Assembly: GCF_026314945.1 (NCBI RefSeq)
Contig: NZ_CP111121.1
Location: 1,550,001 to 1,614,000 of the forward strand
Length of the DNA: 64,000 bases
Direction of reading: 5' to 3'
Source of the DNA: Chryseobacterium fluminis
Lineage (GTDB): Bacteria > Bacteroidota > Bacteroidia > Flavobacteriales > Weeksellaceae
In this document: positions 30,108 to 38,008 of the stretch, piece by piece
How positions within the stretch are numbered: the stretch's first letter is position 1
Layout of the letters: every line of letters starts with the position of its first letter
Made by a program: the position numbers and the translations under genes
Notes under the pieces: generated by a model
What the model was told of the DNA's origin: nothing
What the model saw: only the letters and a program-made list of their open reading frames with translations
Database searches by the model: none

Positions 30108-32231
30108 TTAATTAAGCTCAACCTGAAAATGATCAGAGAGTAATAACACGCCTTCCGTTAAACTTTCAGGATGTGTGGTAAAACCTTTCAGCTTTGAAGT
30201 TTTTCCTTTTAAAACCAGATCCAACAGCTGTTTGTCCGATATCTTTTTTCCAAAAATATCGAAAGATATTTTAAAGCCGCAATTTTTAAAATCCGAACAC
30301 CCTACCGCTGTTTTTCCTTTTATTAAATGATGTTCTTTGCATTTCGGGCATTTCGTTTCCTCCCAGGACTGAAGTTCTTTTTTTGCTGCGGGTTCGCGTT
30401 TTTTCTTTTCTTTAACTTCTTCTTTTTCTTCATGCAGGGTAAATACCTTCGCTTTTCCGTCCACTACTTTTTTGGTAAGCTCCGTAACCATCTGGATCAG
30501 TTCTTCCTTAAAATGGTTGGCTTCATATTCACCGCTTTCGATTTTACGAAGCTTAGATTCCCATTCTCCCGTCAGTTCCGGACTTTTCAGCAATTCGTCT
30601 TCAATAGTGTCAATCAGCTGAATTCCGGTTTGGGTAGCAATTAAGTTTTTCCTTTTCTTCTCGATGTATTTTCTTTTGAAAAGTGTTTCGATAATGTTGG
30701 CCCGGGTGGAAGGTCTTCCGATTCCGTTATTTTTCAGGAGTTCCCGGAGTTCTTCATCTTCCACCTGCTTTCCGGCAGTTTCCATGGCCCTCAGAAGAGT
30801 TGCTTCCGTATAAGGTTTCGGAGGGGACGTTTTTCCCTGGTGAATCATCGGATCATGAGGTCCGGTCTCCCCGACTGTAAACTCAGGAATGGTCTGCTCC
30901 TCTTCTTTATCTTTTTCTTTATCCGTGGGTTCTTCTTTGGTATCTTTTGCATACACGGCTCTCCAGCCGGGCTCAAGAACCTGCCGACCGCTTGTTTTAA
31001 ACGGAATGGTTCCTACCTGTCCTTCTACCAGGGTGTTTGAAATTTTACATTCGGGATAGAATACAGCAATAAACCTTTTCGCAACCAGATCGTAAACCAG
31101 TTTCTCTTCCCTGCTCAGGTTCTGGGATGGCGGAACTTCGGTCGGAATAATGGCATGGTGATCCGTGACTTTCGCATCATCAAAAACAGCTTTCGACTTT
31201 GGAATCGGTGCTTCCAGTAAGGGTGCAACCAACTCCTGATAGAAATACATTTTCCGGAGGATGCCTTCTATCTTAGGATATAAGCTGTCCGATAGATAAG
31301 TGGTATCAACACGCGGATAGGTGACGTGTTTCTTTTCGTAAAGACTCTGAATATACTTTAAGGTATTTTCTGCTGAATATCCGTATTTTTTATTGGCTTC
31401 CACCTGAAGACCGGTCAGATCGAAGAGTCTCGGATTTTTCTCTTTTCCTTCTTTGATTTCAAATGAAACAATCTCAAAGGGATTGACTTTAAGATATTCC
31501 AGGCCTTTTTCGGCACGCTCTAAAGTTTTCAGACGGTCGATGGCCGCATTGAAGATAACGTCACGGTATTTGGTTTTGAGTTCCCAATATTCTTCTGTGG
31601 TAAAGGCATCGATCTCTTTTTGTCGCTGCACCAGCATGGCCAGCGTGGGCGTCTGTACTCTCCCGATGGAAAGAACGGCTTTATTCCCCCCGAATTTTTT
31701 TGTAAAAAGCCGGGTGGCGTTAATTCCCAACAGCCAGTCTCCAATCGCTCTTGCATTTCCCGCGAGATAGAGGTTTTTGTAATCTTCGGAAGGTTTTAAA
31801 TTGGCAAAACCTTCTTTAATCGCCTCTTCGGTAAGGGATGAAATCCACAGACGCTGTATAGGTTTGTTACATTTAGCTTTCTGCAGAACCCACCGTTGAA
31901 TCAGTTCTCCTTCCTGCCCGGCATCCCCGCAGTTGATGACCTCATCACATTCTCCGACTAATCTTTCGATCACTTTAAACTGATTTTCAACACCTTTGTT
32001 GGGAATTAATTTGATCCCAAAATTATTCGGAATGATCGGCAGTAAAAAAAGATTCCAGGATTTGTATTGTGGACCGTAATCGTGAGGTTCTTTCAGCGTG
32101 CAAAGATGTCCGAACGTCCACGTCACACAGTAGCCGTTCCCTTCCATATAGCCCTGTTTAGGCATGGTAGCGCCCAATACTTTAGCAATATCTCTGGCAA
32201 CACTGGGTTTCTCGGCAATACAAAGTTTCAT
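30108..32231 (-). CDS. topB: DNA topoisomerase III (type IA)
   Basis: This 707-aa type IA topoisomerase has an N-terminal Toprim domain (MKLCIAEKPSVARDIAKVLG; NCGDAGQEGELIQRW near 100). The catalytic Tyr lies in HVTYPRVDTTYLSD (about 305). GIGRPSTRANIIETLFKRKY follows at about 500, and a C-terminal four-Cys zinc ribbon (CPKCKEHH...CSDFKNCGF) at about 630-655. It relaxes and decatenates DNA through a covalent 5'-phosphotyrosine. It borders the AT-rich reverse-transcriptase island on its 5' side. Confidence 0.95.
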   Translation of the reverse strand: MKLCIAEKPSVARDIAKVLGATMPKQGYMEGNGYCVTWTFGHLCTLKEPHDYGPQYKSWNLFLLPIIPNNFGIKLIPNKGVENQFKVIERLVGECDEVINCGDAGQEGELIQRWVLQKAKCNKPIQRLWISSLTEEAIKEGFANLKPSEDYKNLYLAGNARAIGDWLLGINATRLFTKKFGGNKAVLSIGRVQTPTLAMLVQRQKEIDAFTTEEYWELKTKYRDVIFNAAIDRLKTLERAEKGLEYLKVNPFEIVSFEIKEGKEKNPRLFDLTGLQVEANKKYGYSAENTLKYIQSLYEKKHVTYPRVDTTYLSDSLYPKIEGILRKMYFYQELVAPLLEAPIPKSKAVFDDAKVTDHHAIIPTEVPPSQNLSREEKLVYDLVAKRFIAVFYPECKISNTLVEGQVGTIPFKTSGRQVLEPGWRAVYAKDTKEEPTDKEKDKEEEQTIPEFTVGETGPHDPMIHQGKTSPPKPYTEATLLRAMETAGKQVEDEELRELLKNNGIGRPSTRANIIETLFKRKYIEKKRKNLIATQTGIQLIDTIEDELLKSPELTGEWESKLRKIESGEYEANHFKEELIQMVTELTKKVVDGKAKVFTLHEEKEEVKEKKKREPAAKKELQSWEETKCPKCKEHHLIKGKTAVGCSDFKNCGFKISFDIFGKKISDKQLLDLVLKGKTSKLKGFTTHPESLTEGVLLLSDHFQVELN

Positions 32232-32354
32232 GAATTTCGGAATTATTGAAGGGTTGCAAAAATCGGGAATTTTTTTGACTTTCGCTAATTTAGTTGAGAG
32301 TTATCACTTGATGATTGAAACAGAGCAAGATCCGAAATTATAAAGAAAATTTAT

Positions 32355-33965
32355 TTATTTTTTATTCAAATGTCTGTCAATCGCTGTAAAAACTATATGT
32401 TTTCTTTTTCTAATCTGATTCATGAAATGATCTTCTTCAAATATTACACAGCATCTTTTTATATAAGAATAATAATTCGATTCTTTTTTATTATTTGCAG
32501 AGTAATGTGAAAATTCATAGAATCCTCTTTCATTTTTAACTAAAGAATATCTTTTCCTCGTTTGTTTCTTAAGCTCTGTACTTTCAGAATCATTAATTTT
32601 TAAAGGCTTATTATAAAGCTTTTTAATCTGATTGATATAAACTGCCTTTTTAGCTTCAGGATTCTTGTGTAATAAAGTTCTGGCTCTTTTACATCTTCTT
32701 TTGGTTATAGAAATTATCTTTCTATAATAACTAGACAGATTAGCTGATTTAATTACCGTTTTATATCCCCTAAATTCAAAGCCTAAATATAATAGTGGAG
32801 TTTCTATTTCTTTTTGAGTCAATTTATTTATTTTAAAGCATGCTAATCTCTTATCATTATGTTTGGGGGAATAAATAACATTTCTAAAAATAAATTTCTC
32901 TGTCTTATTTTTACTTATTTCAACTTTGCTTTCCTCAACTAAATCATAAATGTATTTTTCAATATATTCAGTTTGATTAGGCTTGCAAATTATGACAATA
33001 TCATCGGAATATCTTTTATAGTAAGCTCCCATTTCTTGTACAAGATTAATAACTATTTTTAAGTCAAAATCATATAAATATATATTAGCAAGAAGAGCAC
33101 TTATAGGAAGACCTTGTGGAATTCCAACACTAATTTTATCTCTAGTAAAAGGATTACTATATATTCTTAACTTTCCTTCTTTAATTGTTTTTCGAAATTC
33201 TTCATTACTTTCAAAAAAACATTTAAACCCTTTTTCTTTTCTAATTTTAGCAAGTTTCGCTTCATCAAAACCTAATCTTCGCCCTTTCCTATTTTCTTTT
33301 TGAACTCTTAAATCGTCAAGAAGTACATAGCGAAATTTTGTACATGCTTTAAAAACATTATAATGATCTTTTGGCAGTTCATCTACATTTAAAAGCCATT
33401 TCCATTTTTGCTTTAAAAACTGATGATTTAAACTTGGAAAAAAACTCTTTAAATCGAAAGTTAAAACACAAACCTCTTGATCATTTCCTCTTTTTTTAAT
33501 CTCATCAATAGCTTCTTTCGCAAAATGAATAGTACTTTTCCCCCTTTCATCCTCTTCGGAAATAGCAATTTTACGATAGGCATTTACACAAGAATTTAAT
33601 AAAGGATTTTCTTTTAGTTTTTGTTCATACAAATTATCTAAAAGAAATTTATAATATCCGTAGACAAGAGCATCCATATGACTTGCATAGTGTAATGGGC
33701 GAAGCTTATGTGTTTTTTCTGCTTGGTTAGTATCTTTATGAAAATGAGAATGTCTCCTTTTGTTATGCTTATGTCTTTCAGCATCCCCCTTTTTATATTT
33801 TCTATCTTTTAAAACAGTATGTATAAGAGGATAAAAAGCATATTTTGCTACATAACTTTTATTTGTAATATTATGAGAGTATCTTTTCCAGTCTTCTCCT
33901 ATTTTAAGAGAAGGTGAAAGATGTAAATAGCCTTTTTCTTTTATCCAATCTGGTCTTTTATTCAT
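32355..33965 (-). CDS. Reverse transcriptase of the unknown-group / defence (UG/DRT) type
   Basis: This 536-aa RT has palm motif A LTFDLKSFFPSLNH (Asp171), motif B GIPQGLPISALLANIY (281-296) and catalytic YSDD at 319-322. The thumb segment is LLYLGFEFRGYKTVIKSANL (391-410), followed by a basic helical region. Group II intron maturase and DGR signatures are absent, and the retron NAxxH/VTG motifs are not evident. The HYASHMDALVYGYY...CVNAYRKIAI lead-in (about 92-134) and the alpha-helical C-terminus are of the type seen in UG antiviral RTs (DRT). The exact group cannot be decided by eye. The gene is much more AT-rich than its neighbours. A candidate ncRNA abuts its start codon and a WYL-like gene diverges beyond it. 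Confidence 0.85.
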   Translation of the reverse strand: MNKRPDWIKEKGYLHLSPSLKIGEDWKRYSHNITNKSYVAKYAFYPLIHTVLKDRKYKKGDAERHKHNKRRHSHFHKDTNQAEKTHKLRPLHYASHMDALVYGYYKFLLDNLYEQKLKENPLLNSCVNAYRKIAISEEDERGKSTIHFAKEAIDEIKKRGNDQEVCVLTFDLKSFFPSLNHQFLKQKWKWLLNVDELPKDHYNVFKACTKFRYVLLDDLRVQKENRKGRRLGFDEAKLAKIRKEKGFKCFFESNEEFRKTIKEGKLRIYSNPFTRDKISVGIPQGLPISALLANIYLYDFDLKIVINLVQEMGAYYKRYSDDIVIICKPNQTEYIEKYIYDLVEESKVEISKNKTEKFIFRNVIYSPKHNDKRLACFKINKLTQKEIETPLLYLGFEFRGYKTVIKSANLSSYYRKIISITKRRCKRARTLLHKNPEAKKAVYINQIKKLYNKPLKINDSESTELKKQTRKRYSLVKNERGFYEFSHYSANNKKESNYYSYIKRCCVIFEEDHFMNQIRKRKHIVFTAIDRHLNKK

Positions 33966-33971
33966 AAAAAA

Positions 33972-34345
33972 GCTTGTAAAAAGTCAATATCGTTTTATAA
34001 TTACATACGCTTTCGCAAGATAAGTACCCAGTTACTGAGTCATCAATATTTCCGTAATTAATAGAAATAGCTTTAGAGCTTATTCAGCTTATCGTGAAGA
34101 ACTGTGTATATATAATTAAACCCCGTCAAGATGATGACAGATAAATTAATAAAATCAATTAGGTATTTGGAACCTACTATAATTATCACTAAATTTGTGG
34201 CTATTATCCTATTGTCGTACTTCAACCTTCAAAATTGGGAAGAAGTATTCGAATCTTTAAACCTCATAACCCATTTGTTATAAGTAAGTTTTTAGTAAAA
34301 ACCTATTATCTTAATCTAGTTGTAATTACACTCCTTTTTACAAGC
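33972..34345 (-). ncRNA. Candidate structured RNA upstream of the reverse transcriptase (template/cofactor)
   Basis: This non-coding stretch ends 6 bp before the RT start codon. Its two ends are complementary: GCTTGTAAAAAG (34345-34334) and CTTTTTACAAGC (33983-33972) form a perfect 12-bp stem. Inside, TGTAATTACA and TGTAATTATA (34330-34321 and 34005-33996) pair over 10 bp with one G-U. A run of six T follows the stem up to the ATG. Internal hairpins include TAGGTTTTT/AAAAACTTA and TAGGT/ACCTA. A closed RNA directly 5' of an RT is the layout of DRT and retron ncRNAs. The extent and function are inferred. Confidence 0.6.
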
Positions 34346-34368
34346 ATCCAAAAATACATATTTATTAT

Positions 34369-34376
34369 TATATTTG
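34369..34376 (+). promoter_or_regulatory. -7 element of the WYL-like gene
   Basis: TATATTTG matches TAnnTTTG and gives a leader of about 24 nt before ATG 34405. No TTG sits at the ideal -33 distance, which leaves room for activation or control by a regulator. Confidence 0.6.
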
Positions 34377-34404
34377 CCAGATAACCGCGAAAATAAATTA
34401 AATT

Positions 34405-35586
34405 ATGGGAAATATTTCCATCGGTGATTTTGTCTGTCTTAAAAATCATCCTTATACTTACGATAATAATTTTATAAAAATATCAGCTAATGCTGATATG
34501 ATTCCACCTATCATGGTGATTTCAGAAATATTAAATAAAGATGAATATGATACTGTAACTGGCAAACTTTTTGAAAAGCAATTTAAGTGTATTTATTATT
34601 CACATAAAGATGGAAAATATCAAGATAAATGGATTAAAGAAAGTCAAATAAAATTATTAAAACCAATAAAATCATATTTGAATTTATATGAATTTAATTC
34701 TATTGAAAATTATGATTTAGAATTTCTTAAAGATAAATATGTAAATGAACTTGTTTGTCTAAAAAACGTAGATTTTGAGTTAAATAAAAAGAAGGTATTT
34801 ATTGACAGTTCAAATGGAAAACGTACTGAAAAAGAAAATAATCACCTTGACTTTTTACCTCCTGTAATGACGATTGTAGATATTGTAAAAAATAAAGAGG
34901 AAAAAAAATTCTCTTCTCGAAACGCTCAATTAGAGAAAGCTTGTTCTAAATACCTATTCAAATGCAAATGGTACAACCACAAAACAACAACATATTCTGA
35001 AGAATTTATCCCATCAAACATTTTAGGCCTAATTATAAATCAAAACATTTATATTGATTTTTTTAAATCTTTCTTAAATGATAGGTTTGTACTAATATTA
35101 CAAAGAAACAATAATATCTCAATTGCAGCCAAAACTTTAGCCAATCCAAAGGAGATAATATTTAATCATTATTATTATAAATTAAACTACTTTGATTACC
35201 TTCAACAAAAGATTTCTTCAATATCGTTAAGCGATATAAGATCTGAAAATTCAAATTTGCATTTTAATACTATTAATCTCATTCCTAAAAAATCAGTTTT
35301 TGGAAATAACTATCCAAGCTACGGTTTAACATTTAAACAAATTACGGAAGATATTTTCGTAAATGGCAATTACTTTTTAATAACTTATAAAGATAAATTA
35401 GATAGAATGACTAAAAGAATAATCAAAGTTATTTCTAGAGATTATCATACAAATGACCTTGAAAATGAAGACTATGTTTTTATTGTGGCAAATTGCTTTT
35501 TAAGAGATGGGAATATTAGACATTTCAATTTAAAGCAAATTACAGAAGTTACTGAGATTCAAAAAGGAGCTAGTTTACTCGAATAA
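34405..35586 (+). CDS. Hypothetical protein: two YodC/DUF2158-like repeats plus WYL-like C-terminus
   Basis: This 393-aa, AT-rich gene encodes an internal duplication. Repeat 1 (about 7-84) has GDFVCLKNHPY, IPPIMVISEI, FKCIYYSHKDGKY and ESQIKLL. Repeat 2 (about 115-208) has ELVCLKNVDFE, LPPVMTIVDI, FKCKWYNHKTTTY and PSNILGL. Each resembles the small SH3-like YodC/DUF2158 fold. The last 70 residues (FLITYKDKLDRMTKRIIKVI...YVFIVANCFLRDGNIRHFNL) follow the WYL-domain pattern of alternating strands with conserved Arg. WYL domains often sense ligands or nucleic acids in defence-island regulators, but no helix-turn-helix is seen. It is divergent from the RT gene across the candidate ncRNA, so a regulatory or effector role in the same system is plausible but unproven. 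Confidence 0.65.
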   Translation: MGNISIGDFVCLKNHPYTYDNNFIKISANADMIPPIMVISEILNKDEYDTVTGKLFEKQFKCIYYSHKDGKYQDKWIKESQIKLLKPIKSYLNLYEFNSIENYDLEFLKDKYVNELVCLKNVDFELNKKKVFIDSSNGKRTEKENNHLDFLPPVMTIVDIVKNKEEKKFSSRNAQLEKACSKYLFKCKWYNHKTTTYSEEFIPSNILGLIINQNIYIDFFKSFLNDRFVLILQRNNNISIAAKTLANPKEIIFNHYYYKLNYFDYLQQKISSISLSDIRSENSNLHFNTINLIPKKSVFGNNYPSYGLTFKQITEDIFVNGNYFLITYKDKLDRMTKRIIKVISRDYHTNDLENEDYVFIVANCFLRDGNIRHFNLKQITEVTEIQKGASLLE

Positions 35587-35605
35587 AATGAAAATATTAA
35601 TAATG

Positions 35606-35640
35606 AGGCCGTCTCACAACTCGTGAAAACGGCCTTTTTT
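35606..35640 (+). terminator. Terminator of the WYL-like gene
   Basis: Arms AGGCCGT (35606-35612) and ACGGCCT (35629-35635), with an inner TCAC/GTGA pairing, are followed by five T. It lies 20 bp after the stop codon. Confidence 0.8.
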
Positions 35641-35862
35641 ATGAAATTTTCCTGTATCCCTATACGAGCAGGGTTTCCGTTTAAACAATTCTCAACCCAC
35701 ATCGTTTAGTTGTTATACACCTTCCAATATGTTAACGAAAACCAGTTTATTATTTCTTATTCACCTCAGCAATTGCATTTTAATTCCGCCGCCTGCCACT
35801 TCAAAGAAAGACGGACCTGCCAGCAGATATACTTTTTCCAGTTTTTTGGTTTTGGATAGTTT

Positions 35863-35957
35863 ATGTCGGATGTCGGATGTCGGGTGTCGGGTGTCGGGTG
35901 TCGGGTGTCGGATGTCGGATGTCGGGTGTCGGGTGTCGGGTGTCGGGTGTCGGGTGT
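35863..35957. repeat. Heptanucleotide tandem repeat (RTGTCGG), about 13.5 copies
   Basis: Thirteen complete 7-bp units RTGTCGG and a partial unit run without interruption. The first base varies in blocks: three A, four G, two A, four G, then the partial unit. Because 7 is not a multiple of 3, all frames stay open, which creates spurious small ORFs on both strands. The surrounding 35641-36150 holds no convincing gene. Confidence 0.9.
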
Positions 35958-36152
35958 TTATCAAAGGTAGTTTTTGGGTGACAATTTCACATTGATGTGG
36001 GATAAGGAATGGATATTTTTTTTATTTATTCATTTTCCCATTTTTTTCGCCCACCGAGAGATATTTGTCTTTTTTTAGATAACGGAACATACTATACACA
36101 ACTCACAATCAAATACCAATACCATAAAAACAGTTGTATTTTTTTACACAAA

Positions 36153-36185
36153 AAGACCCGGACTAAAAAACCCGGGTCTTCAAAC
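36153..36185 (-). terminator. Terminator of the pirin gene
   Basis: Arms AAGACCCGG (36153-36161) and CCGGGTCTT (36172-36180) enclose a 10-nt loop. On the minus strand TTTTTG follows. It sits 50 bp after the pirin stop. Confidence 0.75.
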
Positions 36186-36230
36186 CACACTATATTTCAC
36201 TCCTACAGGAGTATCTGTTTAATTTTTCTG

Positions 36231-37106
36231 TTACATTGACATCGGTACTTCCATTAACAGAATTTCAGTTCCTTCCGCTGTTGTTTTTATAGTCAGATCG
36301 GTAATATCCCAAACTCCGAAGCCATCTCTTTTTTCTAATGGCTGACCTTCAATTTCTGCGCTTCCTTTTAAAATAAAAGCATACACTCCGTTTCCTTTTT
36401 TCTTCAGCTGATAATTGGTTTCGGTTTGATTTTTAAAGTTTCCCAAGTGAAACCAGGCATCCTGATGAATCCAGACTCCTTCATCATCAGCATTGGGAGA
36501 AAGAATTTGCTGAAACGTATTTTGACTTTTTGTTTTGTCTAATGTGATCTGGCCATATCTCGGCATAACATTTCTTTTATCAGGATACACCCAGATCTGA
36601 AGGAATTTAACCGGGCGGTCTGTATTTTTATTAAATTCGCTGTGCATAATTCCGGTTCCGGCACTCATCACCTGGATATCTCCGCTTCTGATCACTGCAG
36701 AATTCCCCATACTGTCTTTATGTTCCAGATCACCTTCCAGAGGAATGCTGATGATTTCCATATTGTCGTGAGGATGGGTTCCGAAGCCTCTTCCTGCTTC
36801 TACTTTATCGTCATTAAGAACTCTCAGTACTCCGAAATGCATTCTTTCCGGATTATGATAATTGGCAAAACTGAAAGTATGGTTGCTCACCAGCCATCCG
36901 TGGTCTGCCTTTCCTCTTGAATCTGCTTTATGAATCACAGAATTGTCTTTAATTTTTGACTCAGGGTTGGGTAAATGATTGTATCCGATGGGCTCAAGCG
37001 GCTCGATTTCGTCAATCTCATTTTTCATGGTATTTCCAAGTGAGGCAGATGCTACAAACATTCCTGTTCCCAATAATCCTTTCTTTAAAAAATCCTTTCT
37101 GTCCAT
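36231..37106 (-). CDS. Pirin-family bicupin protein with N-terminal export signal
   Basis: This 291-aa protein has two cupin domains. The pirin metal-site motif lies at about 95-115 (GFGTHPHDNMEIISIPLEGD) with further ligands in GTGIMHSEFN (about 150). The C-terminal cupin starts near 200 (ILSPNADDEGVWIHQDAWFH). Bacterial pirins of the YhhW type have quercetinase (dioxygenase) activity. The N-terminus RKDFLKKGLLGTGMFVASAS resembles a Tat-type signal, unusual for this family. Its promoter shares an operator with the dioxygenase operon at 43.2 kb, so it probably belongs to the same electrophile/quinone response. Confidence 0.88.
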   Translation of the reverse strand: MDRKDFLKKGLLGTGMFVASASLGNTMKNEIDEIEPLEPIGYNHLPNPESKIKDNSVIHKADSRGKADHGWLVSNHTFSFANYHNPERMHFGVLRVLNDDKVEAGRGFGTHPHDNMEIISIPLEGDLEHKDSMGNSAVIRSGDIQVMSAGTGIMHSEFNKNTDRPVKFLQIWVYPDKRNVMPRYGQITLDKTKSQNTFQQILSPNADDEGVWIHQDAWFHLGNFKNQTETNYQLKKKGNGVYAFILKGSAEIEGQPLEKRDGFGVWDITDLTIKTTAEGTEILLMEVPMSM

Positions 37107-37137
37107 ATCTGTTGTTATTTATTTGATTTCGATAAGG

Positions 37138-37186
37138 CAAATGTAGGGAGAGAAAATATGTTGTGCATTTAACTAGTTTAATAAAT
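37138..37186 (-). promoter_or_regulatory. Pirin promoter with operator shared with the 43-kb dioxygenase operon
   Basis: On the minus strand, ATTTATTAAACTAGTT then AAATGCAC (37186-37163) is followed after exactly 17 bp by TACATTTG (37145-37138, matching TAnnTTTG). The same block at the same spacing lies at 43225-43273. The core AACTAGTT is palindromic and covers the -33 region. Beyond it, 37187-37423 shows no gene. Confidence 0.7.
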
Positions 37187-37423
37187 CGCTTTTGAAATAT
37201 TTTTTGGTTCTATTTTTTTGTTGGAATAAGAAAGGGCTATAAAAAAGTTTTCTTATAAAATTTGAGTTTTCGGGTATCTGATAAATTAAAATTTATAAGA
37301 CCTTTTTTTGGAATAAAAACAAAGGATCGGTAATCTGTAAATATAATCATCCTGCCAAAAATTTCAAGTATTTACTAAACTTATCAGTAATTGGAATTTT
37401 TTGAATGATTTATTAATTGAAAA

Positions 37424-38008
37424 TCATTTATCCTTTGAAGCCAGTCGCTTTCTGATGGTACTCACAAATTCTTTTGAAACCCCAAGATAAGAGGCAATAT
37501 AATACTGTGGAACTCTCTGTGGAATCGTGGGATATACTTTCACAAATTCTAAATAACGGTCCGACGCACTTTTTGATATGGTATTCACCAGGCGGTTCTG
37601 AAGTGTTGATAAATTTCGCTGAACCAACATTCTGAAAACCCTTTCGAATTTCGGATATTGTTTTAACAATTTTTCTTTTGATTCCGGATTCAGTAGGTAA
37701 ATTTCTGAGTCTTCCAGGGTTTCAATATAGAGATTTGAAGGCTTCTGTTCCTGAAATGAGGCAATATCACTCGTCCACCAGTCTTCAATAGCAAATAAAA
37801 TCGTCACTTCGAAACCGTTATCATCCAGGTAATAGACTCTCACACAGCCTTTCTGGATATAGCCTTCAAACTGACATACCTCTCCTTCTCTTAATAAAAC
37901 CGTTTTCTTGGGAATCGTCTGACAGGTGAGCAGATCGGTGAAAAAATTTTCTTCTTCCTGACTAAGATTAATGAATCGTGTGACGTTTTTAATGATATTT
38001 TCGAACAT
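37424..38008 (-). CDS. Crp/Fnr-family transcriptional regulator
   Basis: This 194-aa product has an N-terminal cyclic-nucleotide-binding-like beta-roll (about 20-110, KKTVLLREGEVCQFEGYIQKG). The C-terminal helix-turn-helix is at about 160-190 (VPQYYIASYLGVSKEFVSTIRKRL). The phosphate-binding RxS signature of true CRP is absent, so the ligand is unknown. The gene follows the 103-aa receiver-like protein gene by 9 bp in the same direction, suggesting one transcript. It could regulate the nearby pirin or antiporter genes. Confidence 0.85.
   Translation of the reverse strand: MFENIIKNVTRFINLSQEEENFFTDLLTCQTIPKKTVLLREGEVCQFEGYIQKGCVRVYYLDDNGFEVTILFAIEDWWTSDIASFQEQKPSNLYIETLEDSEIYLLNPESKEKLLKQYPKFERVFRMLVQRNLSTLQNRLVNTISKSASDRYLEFVKVYPTIPQRVPQYYIASYLGVSKEFVSTIRKRLASKDK

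Follow-up and report, generated by a model that had tools for sequence, protein, structure and literature searches.

What does a reverse transcriptase (RT) make when it is encoded beside a structured non-coding region and a divergently oriented gene with a WYL-like end, and do the three parts belong to a defense system of a known kind? This question is raised by a locus at positions 32355-35586 of a 64,000-nt stretch of the Chryseobacterium fluminis genome (contig NZ_CP111121.1, positions 1,550,001 to 1,614,000; this whole stretch is called the window), where a sequence-only reading had singled out a compact AT-rich island and described it as one phage-defense module unlike the defense-associated reverse transcriptase (DRT) types it could name. 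We consider it quite probable that the locus is a divergent DRT2-type phage-defense system that makes neo, a gene existing only after reverse transcription, from a template bounded by TTTA-type repeats. As a whole it resembles DRT2 gene synthesis, but with a different jump motif, payloads that can be exchanged, and a constant partner protein that has a WYL fold and often diverges fast. For the DRT2 system of Klebsiella pneumoniae, PMC12039810 and PMC11100668 describe how the RT copies a 120-nt, ACA-flanked template into concatemers, and how in infected cells part of the concatemer becomes double-stranded, the junction rebuilds a promoter and the repetitive Neo protein halts growth.

The RT (32355-33965, minus strand, 536 amino acids) contains the YSDD active-site motif and the GIPQGLPISALLANIY motif just as the sequence-only reading had quoted them, and the YxDD motif (YSDD) is invariant across 20 aligned relatives. 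Its proposed UG/DRT class was specified as DRT2/UG2-like by PADLOC, NCBIfam and the PDB: the PADLOC model Drt2 PDLC03757 scores 403 bits (E 4.9e-121) and the next non-Drt2 model, the UG17 profile, 83 bits; the best NCBIfam model is Drt2 NF041746 (287.6 bits, below its cut-off of 390); and the nearest PDB structures are Drt2 chains (9c0i, E 1.4e-36). The RT does not group with retron or group II intron enzymes, as retron_St85_RT reaches only 51.8 bits (cut-off 235) and the maturase model TIGR04416 only 71.2 bits (cut-off 300). The module is thus not outside the known DRT types, contrary to what had been proposed, because the RT is DRT2/UG2-like and an association of RT and WYL-YodC protein was already modeled in PADLOC-DB 2.0.0 (2023).

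Relatives were fetched as numbered loci, L001 being the window itself, and group A comprises the loci with a close RT (34 fetched, 29 after dereplication). In an RT tree of 56 rows, made up of groups A, B and C and three reference RTs on long branches, group A, which holds the window (29 rows, support 100/100), joins group B (10 rows, 100/97) at 94/86 under a midpoint root; group C has 14 rows (98/97). The sequence evidence makes the RT a divergent member of DRT2/UG2. Viral contigs contain three related loci, with just 30-39% identity, and the matches in 39 plasmid and 3 phage records all stay below 60% identity.

Between the open reading frames (ORFs) of RT and partner lies a gap of 439 bp (33966-34404), matching the roughly 440 bp of non-coding DNA with pairing ends that had been noted; the ends do pair, but the plus strand of the gap carries the predicted neo unit. 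The minus strand is predicted to encode a structured non-coding RNA (ncRNA) upstream of the RT and codirectional with it (about 374 nt, 33972-34345), its ends being placed by the closing helix P1, in which GCTTGTAAAAAG (34334-34345) pairs with CTTTTTACAAGC (33972-33983) over 12 bp. The P1 pairing is kept in relatives with different letters: the best end-to-end helix scores within a locus range from 8.2 to 17.8 with a mean of 13.2 (28 loci), compared with a between-locus mean of 8.4; only 7% of the between-locus pairs, a set that includes close relatives, score as high as the within-locus median; L055 (8.2) does not rise above the between-locus mean. The minimum-energy fold of the window ncRNA has a z-score of -3.36, and none of 100 shuffles folds as low. 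An Rfam search over 31500-37500 gave no match at E 1, and hence no family. Relatives share the architecture of a TAnnTTTG element, a 5' domain, a variable middle and a conserved 3' scaffold; in the window this scaffold (TGACTCAGTAACTGGGTACTTATC ... GTATGTAA ...) occupies 33984-34042 on the minus strand and has 18 invariant columns in the 29-locus alignment. A second hairpin (CTTATAAC...GTTATGAG, 34263-34284, minus strand) adjoins the 5' border of the template, and its counterparts in relatives, read by eye, are stems of other letters at the same place. A run of T between the 3' arm and the RT start codon (33966-33971, minus strand) recurs in the relatives' alignment. As side observations, a second short repeat, AATTAC, surrounds the whole 5' domain and template (34316-34327 and 34052-34059; TTTAC in some other loci), and type-B loci have a conserved scaffold of their own.

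A repeat search placed two copies of the direct repeat GGTTTAA on the minus strand, at 34257-34263 (5' copy) and 34116-34122 (3' copy), which we predict to be the template-jump sites. They delimit a predicted neo repeat unit of 141 nt or 47 codons (34121-34261, plus strand), which is stop-free across its junction and from its ATG at 34131 reads MMTDKLIKSIRYLEPTIIITKFVAIILLSYFNLQNWEEVFESLNPVK, then repeats endlessly. In the relatives, one TTTA-type repeat directly follows hairpin 2 and the other precedes the TGACTC scaffold by 16-18 nt (78 nt in the window, L004 and L005). Repeats were placed by hand in 25 of the 34 loci, and in all 25 the resulting unit, 102-162 nt long, has a length divisible by 3 and no stop codon through the junction; all 21 distinct units are open, compared with a mean of 1.3 and a maximum of 6 of 21 in 300 rounds of dinucleotide shuffling. 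A hydrophobic ATG frame occurs in the variable middle on the strand of the complementary DNA (cDNA), in the window the plus strand, in 28 of the 29 dereplicated group-A loci, and on the other strand in two (shuffles: mean 1.0, maximum 5), with thresholds that were chosen after a first inspection of the frames. An automated repeat rule found pairs in 18 of 29 loci, 22 in all; 20 of these are multiples of 3, and every one of the 20 is open.

Further evidence comes from closely related systems. Between L012 and L015 the RT DNA is 93% identical, the 5' domain 98% and the scaffold 96%, but the template only 51%, with units of 117 and 141 nt; conversely, the L012 template is 84% identical to that of L016 though the RTs share only 69%. 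Templates likewise fall behind the RT for L010/L011 (57% vs 93%) and L054/L065 (65% vs 88%), with better template matches for L065/L070 (83%) and L054/L071 (84%). Read by eye, the L012/L015 identity ends at the TTT of the 5' repeat, with one mismatch a few bases earlier, and returns at the TTTA of the 3' repeat; these breakpoints support the unit borders independently of any reading frame. The comparisons show that near-identical systems hold different putative neo cassettes, swapped at TTTA-type repeats.

Several observations weigh against this reading. The repeat pair was picked after seeing which units were open, the automated rule was written later on the same loci, and no held-out group-A loci were found for testing it; the rule finds no pair in 11 of 29 loci, and its pairs in L022 and L056 fail. 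Nine other 4-mers of the zone were compared: seven of them yield 0-3 open units from 4-19 pairs, CAAT yields 2 of 3 and ACAA 6 of 8, the latter perhaps because ACAA keeps a fixed spacing from TTTA in related loci. Seven of the 21 units are also open on their opposite strand, and no third-position bias was seen among related units (7 pairs). The shared repeat comprises only 3-4 nt in some loci (TTT in L015, L017, L018 and L023; GGTT in L005), L006-L008, L055, L056, L067 and L073 fit only with other or weaker repeats, and two of the 34 loci (L019, L068) have no accepted unit. The 51% identity of the L012/L015 templates is a figure without a chance baseline. Lastly, no promoter of Bacteroidota or sigma-70 type stands out before the neo ATG in 21 group-A concatemers: an exact TAnnTTTG occurs in 1 of 21 (0.9 expected), TATAAT in 3 (2.0 expected), and TTGACA/TATAAT are not enriched.

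Other borders were tried and rejected. With the conserved 5' TTACA motif and the scaffold as its borders, neo is open in just 3 of 20 loci at any boundary tried, and ACA/ACA repeats as in K. pneumoniae gave no consistent solution in groups B and C and two references. As a control, the same kind of scan applied to a Psychrobacter locus with annotated drt2 (L091) returned one ACA-bounded open unit of 105 nt; for a Rhizobium locus (L092) the ACA scan gave a doubtful 60-nt unit only. In sister group B no single repeat rule for neo was found. Separately, candidate units with CAATTTC or ATACC repeats occur in group C (L027-L030, L082, L084-L086, L088 and L089; 141-153 nt in several loci).

Could the hydrophobic frame instead be an ordinary, terminated small gene of 50 amino acids (34131-34283), antisense to the ncRNA and forming a type I toxin-antitoxin-like pair beside the RT? 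In the chromosome the frame of the window does stop, inside hairpin 2, and it lies on the strand of the partner gene. The stop is located outside the repeat-bounded unit, however, for which reason the terminated peptide was dropped as a product; moreover, such a gene would have no need for junction-open units in multiples of 3, as found in all 25 loci tried of 34, nor for cassette identity that breaks at the repeats. We regard it as unlikely.

The third part of the locus, the partner ORF (34405-35586, plus strand, 393 amino acids), was confirmed as described and matches the PADLOC models PDLC03787 (RTasWYL-YodC, 348 bits) and PDLC03806 (74 bits). Its linkage to the RT was followed in 320 genomes of the host family at an RT match threshold of E 1e-30. 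RT matches were found in 30 genomes and the partner in 21, which are exactly those with an RT match above 400 bits, each pair being adjacent and divergent; none of the other nine has the partner, their RTs being weaker relatives or, in the case of G090, a fragment of 50% identity. The full-type partner is present in all 34 group-A loci fetched, so that RT, ncRNA and partner recur as one module and the proposed neighborhood of partner and homologous RTs is seen in other genomes. A shorter relative (open frames of 234-262 amino acids) occurs in 11 of 11 type-B loci, in L087 with an RT fragment, and 21 loci with weaker RTs (14 of them group C in the tree; L026 is the G090 fragment) have no partner within flanks of up to 1.5 kb. 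The distances of RT and partner are strongly correlated (r 0.94), and in several pairs the partner has changed more quickly than the RT, a pattern that would suit a phage-facing role. A single origin of the YodC partner ahead of the split between groups A and B is possible, with the WYL tail marking group A. The type-B loci are L057-L060, L074-L079 and L087; in L057, L058 and L075 the short YodC-like partner is codirectional with the RT.

Two YodC-like repeats and a WYL-like tail had been recognized in this protein, and both are backed by the two PADLOC models and a confident AlphaFold2 model, in which residues 311-393 match WYL domains best, among them that of DriD bound to single-stranded DNA (ssDNA), at 8-17% identity, which proves no shared function. 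We place YodC-like barrels at residues 1-90 and 116-212 (borders ours) and a third barrel at 213-300. Residues 1-210, the part in which the N-terminal winged-helix DNA-binding domain of WYL regulators was looked for, are hardly covered by fold matches (none at E <=0.001 with Foldseek alone), so the YodC-likeness of the first half comes from the PADLOC models. Pfam and NCBIfam gave no match to the window's partner, and a PDB sequence search nothing meaningful.

The promoter elements hint at what the partner might do. Upstream of the ncRNA lies a -7-like TAnnTTTG element (TATTTTTG, 34349-34356, minus strand), and the zone searched contains such an element in every group-A locus but L067 (33 of 34). 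A second one (TATATTTG, 34369-34376, plus strand) ends 28 nt before the partner start codon, in the divergent ncRNA promoter region; such opposite-strand elements within 60 nt of the ncRNA element occur in 9 of 28 loci examined vs 1.0 expected from shuffling. In group C, where the partner is lacking, 9 of 14 loci have a TAnnTTTG between the scaffold and the start of neo vs 0.7 expected from shuffling (the start of L029 was assumed), whereas group A has no recognizable junction promoter; this contrast suggests that in group A control of neo expression may have passed to the partner. In a looser 170-nt scan of the chromosome, for which there is no chance expectation, 11 of 29 group-A loci have the element on the cDNA strand, near the scaffold in L067 and L068. 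As a separate observation, the ncRNA and partner elements of the window stand back to back (34349-34376), with the same 20-nt offset in L004, L005, L006 and L008.

By analogy with K. pneumoniae, the RT would copy the template and, at the 5' repeat, jump back to the 3' one, so producing concatemeric cDNA; on phage infection the concatemer would become double-stranded, and neo would be transcribed into mRNA and translated into a repetitive, hydrophobic protein that arrests growth. Less firmly, we infer that the partner acts as a control factor of the chassis: like the ssDNA-binding WYL domain of DriD, its own could detect the concatemer in ssDNA form and then permit second-strand synthesis or transcription of neo. 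It is a tentative but possible extension that the chassis of RT and ncRNA assembles whichever cassette sits between the TTTA repeats, that cassettes are exchanged horizontally, and that the YodC-WYL protein senses the ssDNA concatemer or the phage and licenses expression of the toxin gene, replacing the junction promoter.

Alternatively, the cDNA itself might be the working product, a retron-like or DRT10-like ssDNA sensed by the WYL partner as effector. The constancy of the partner, its fold match to ssDNA-bound DriD and the failure to find a neo promoter would agree with this, as would DRT10, which according to PMC12632851 requires its protein partner for defense and makes mostly ssDNA repeats. 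But it leaves unexplained why all 21 distinct templates have lengths divisible by 3 and an uninterrupted hydrophobic frame, and no enzyme domain stands out in the partner's fold matches, which hardly cover residues 1-210; we therefore think it improbable. The partner might also serve as antitoxin or immunity protein against its own Neo alone, since it is always encoded beside the neo template. Neo and partner are decoupled, though: L012 and L015 have 97% identical partners and 21% identical Neo, L001 and L004 60% identical partners and 87% identical Neo. Such independent change argues against a Neo-specific antitoxin, which we judge very unlikely. That the partner is a dispensable neighbor merely traveling with the RT could be read from the 21 weaker RT loci without such a gene in the fetched flanks, L026 included, but given its retention in all close-RT loci, in shorter form in all sister-type loci, the parallel distances and the identical set of genomes, this seems hardly credible.

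The AT-rich island was borne out, with 23-30% G/C in 500-bp windows over 32250-35749 and 29-48% (mostly >32%) in the flanks shown, and so were the core-gene flanks, a type IA topoisomerase (Pfam Topoisom_bac, Toprim) on one side and pirin on the other. Among 36 loci searched, the topoisomerase adjoins the RT only in L001 (the window), L002, L004 and L005, L002 and L005 probably being the same genome; elsewhere the RT adjoins something else on that side, which suggests that the module moves. Pirin gave no match in L002 and L003, the only loci with enough reach on that side. The neighboring topoisomerase (30108-32231) also matches PADLOC DpdF (372.6 bits), perhaps through a shared topoisomerase domain rather than a Dpd system, and a tandem array of 13.4 copies of the 7-bp unit TGTCGGG (96% matches) lies a short way downstream of the partner gene at 35864-35957.

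Which part of this is new? The RT-WYL-YodC association is already known and catalogued in PADLOC; what appears to be new is the neo unit, together with its TTTA jump repeats and the exchange of cassettes. Full-text searching of the open PubMed Central (PMC) library turned up no paper that joins 'reverse transcriptase', WYL and YodC. Among the matches listed from the open PMC literature, viewed by title and start of abstract, none deals with neo in DRT2 systems of Bacteroidota or with a DRT that has a WYL partner (subscription papers and the Tang study in its final version lie outside this search), and 'Bacteroid' is absent from the main text of PMC11100668, PMC12039810 and PMC12596737. The discoverers of neo called Neo annotation 'more challenging' in divergent DRT2 clades and considered alternative mechanisms possible (PMC11100668). 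Our data suggest that neo is conserved in one such divergent clade of Flavobacteriales, where it would have been hidden because the jump motif differs, and the exact unit, junction and protein are predicted for this locus. The breaks in identity point to a modular payload whose natural boundaries are the jump repeats, and the constant partner that outpaces RT divergence in several pairs may be where regulation or phage recognition lies. If true, genes of the neo kind are more widespread and more exchangeable than ACA-based annotation shows.

Compared with known systems, the locus is closest to K. pneumoniae DRT2, with which it shares a DRT2-type RT, an upstream ncRNA on the RT strand, a template between short direct repeats and a hydrophobic, stop-free cDNA-strand frame whose length is a multiple of 3. 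It differs in its TTTA-type repeats, compared with ACA/ACA there (PMC12039810), in the longer RT (536 vs 425 amino acids), which does not reach the NCBIfam Drt2 cut-off, and in that no junction promoter is recognized. Studied DRT2 systems are single-gene operons, a typical though not defining feature, whereas here a YodC-WYL gene accompanies the RT in all 34 close-RT loci. Of the PADLOC models RTasWYL-YodC and RTasYodC, the former fits both the partner and its adjacency to a UG RT, and the sister clade has a shorter, YodC-only-like partner; PADLOC gives the association only, and neo, jump repeats and cassette exchange lie outside it. This association reportedly rests on Mestre et al. 2022. DRT10 (UG17) with its SLATT partner resembles our locus in combining RT, ncRNA, protein partner and repetitive cDNA, but in PMC12632851 it is described with short tandem repeats, no neo and another partner, and its UG17 profile scores far below Drt2 on the RT found here. 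With the WYL proteins BrxR, CapW, PafBC and DriD, of which BrxR, PafBC and DriD are transcription regulators by title, the partner shares the modeled WYL fold of its residues 311-393, which here sits behind YodC-like barrels.

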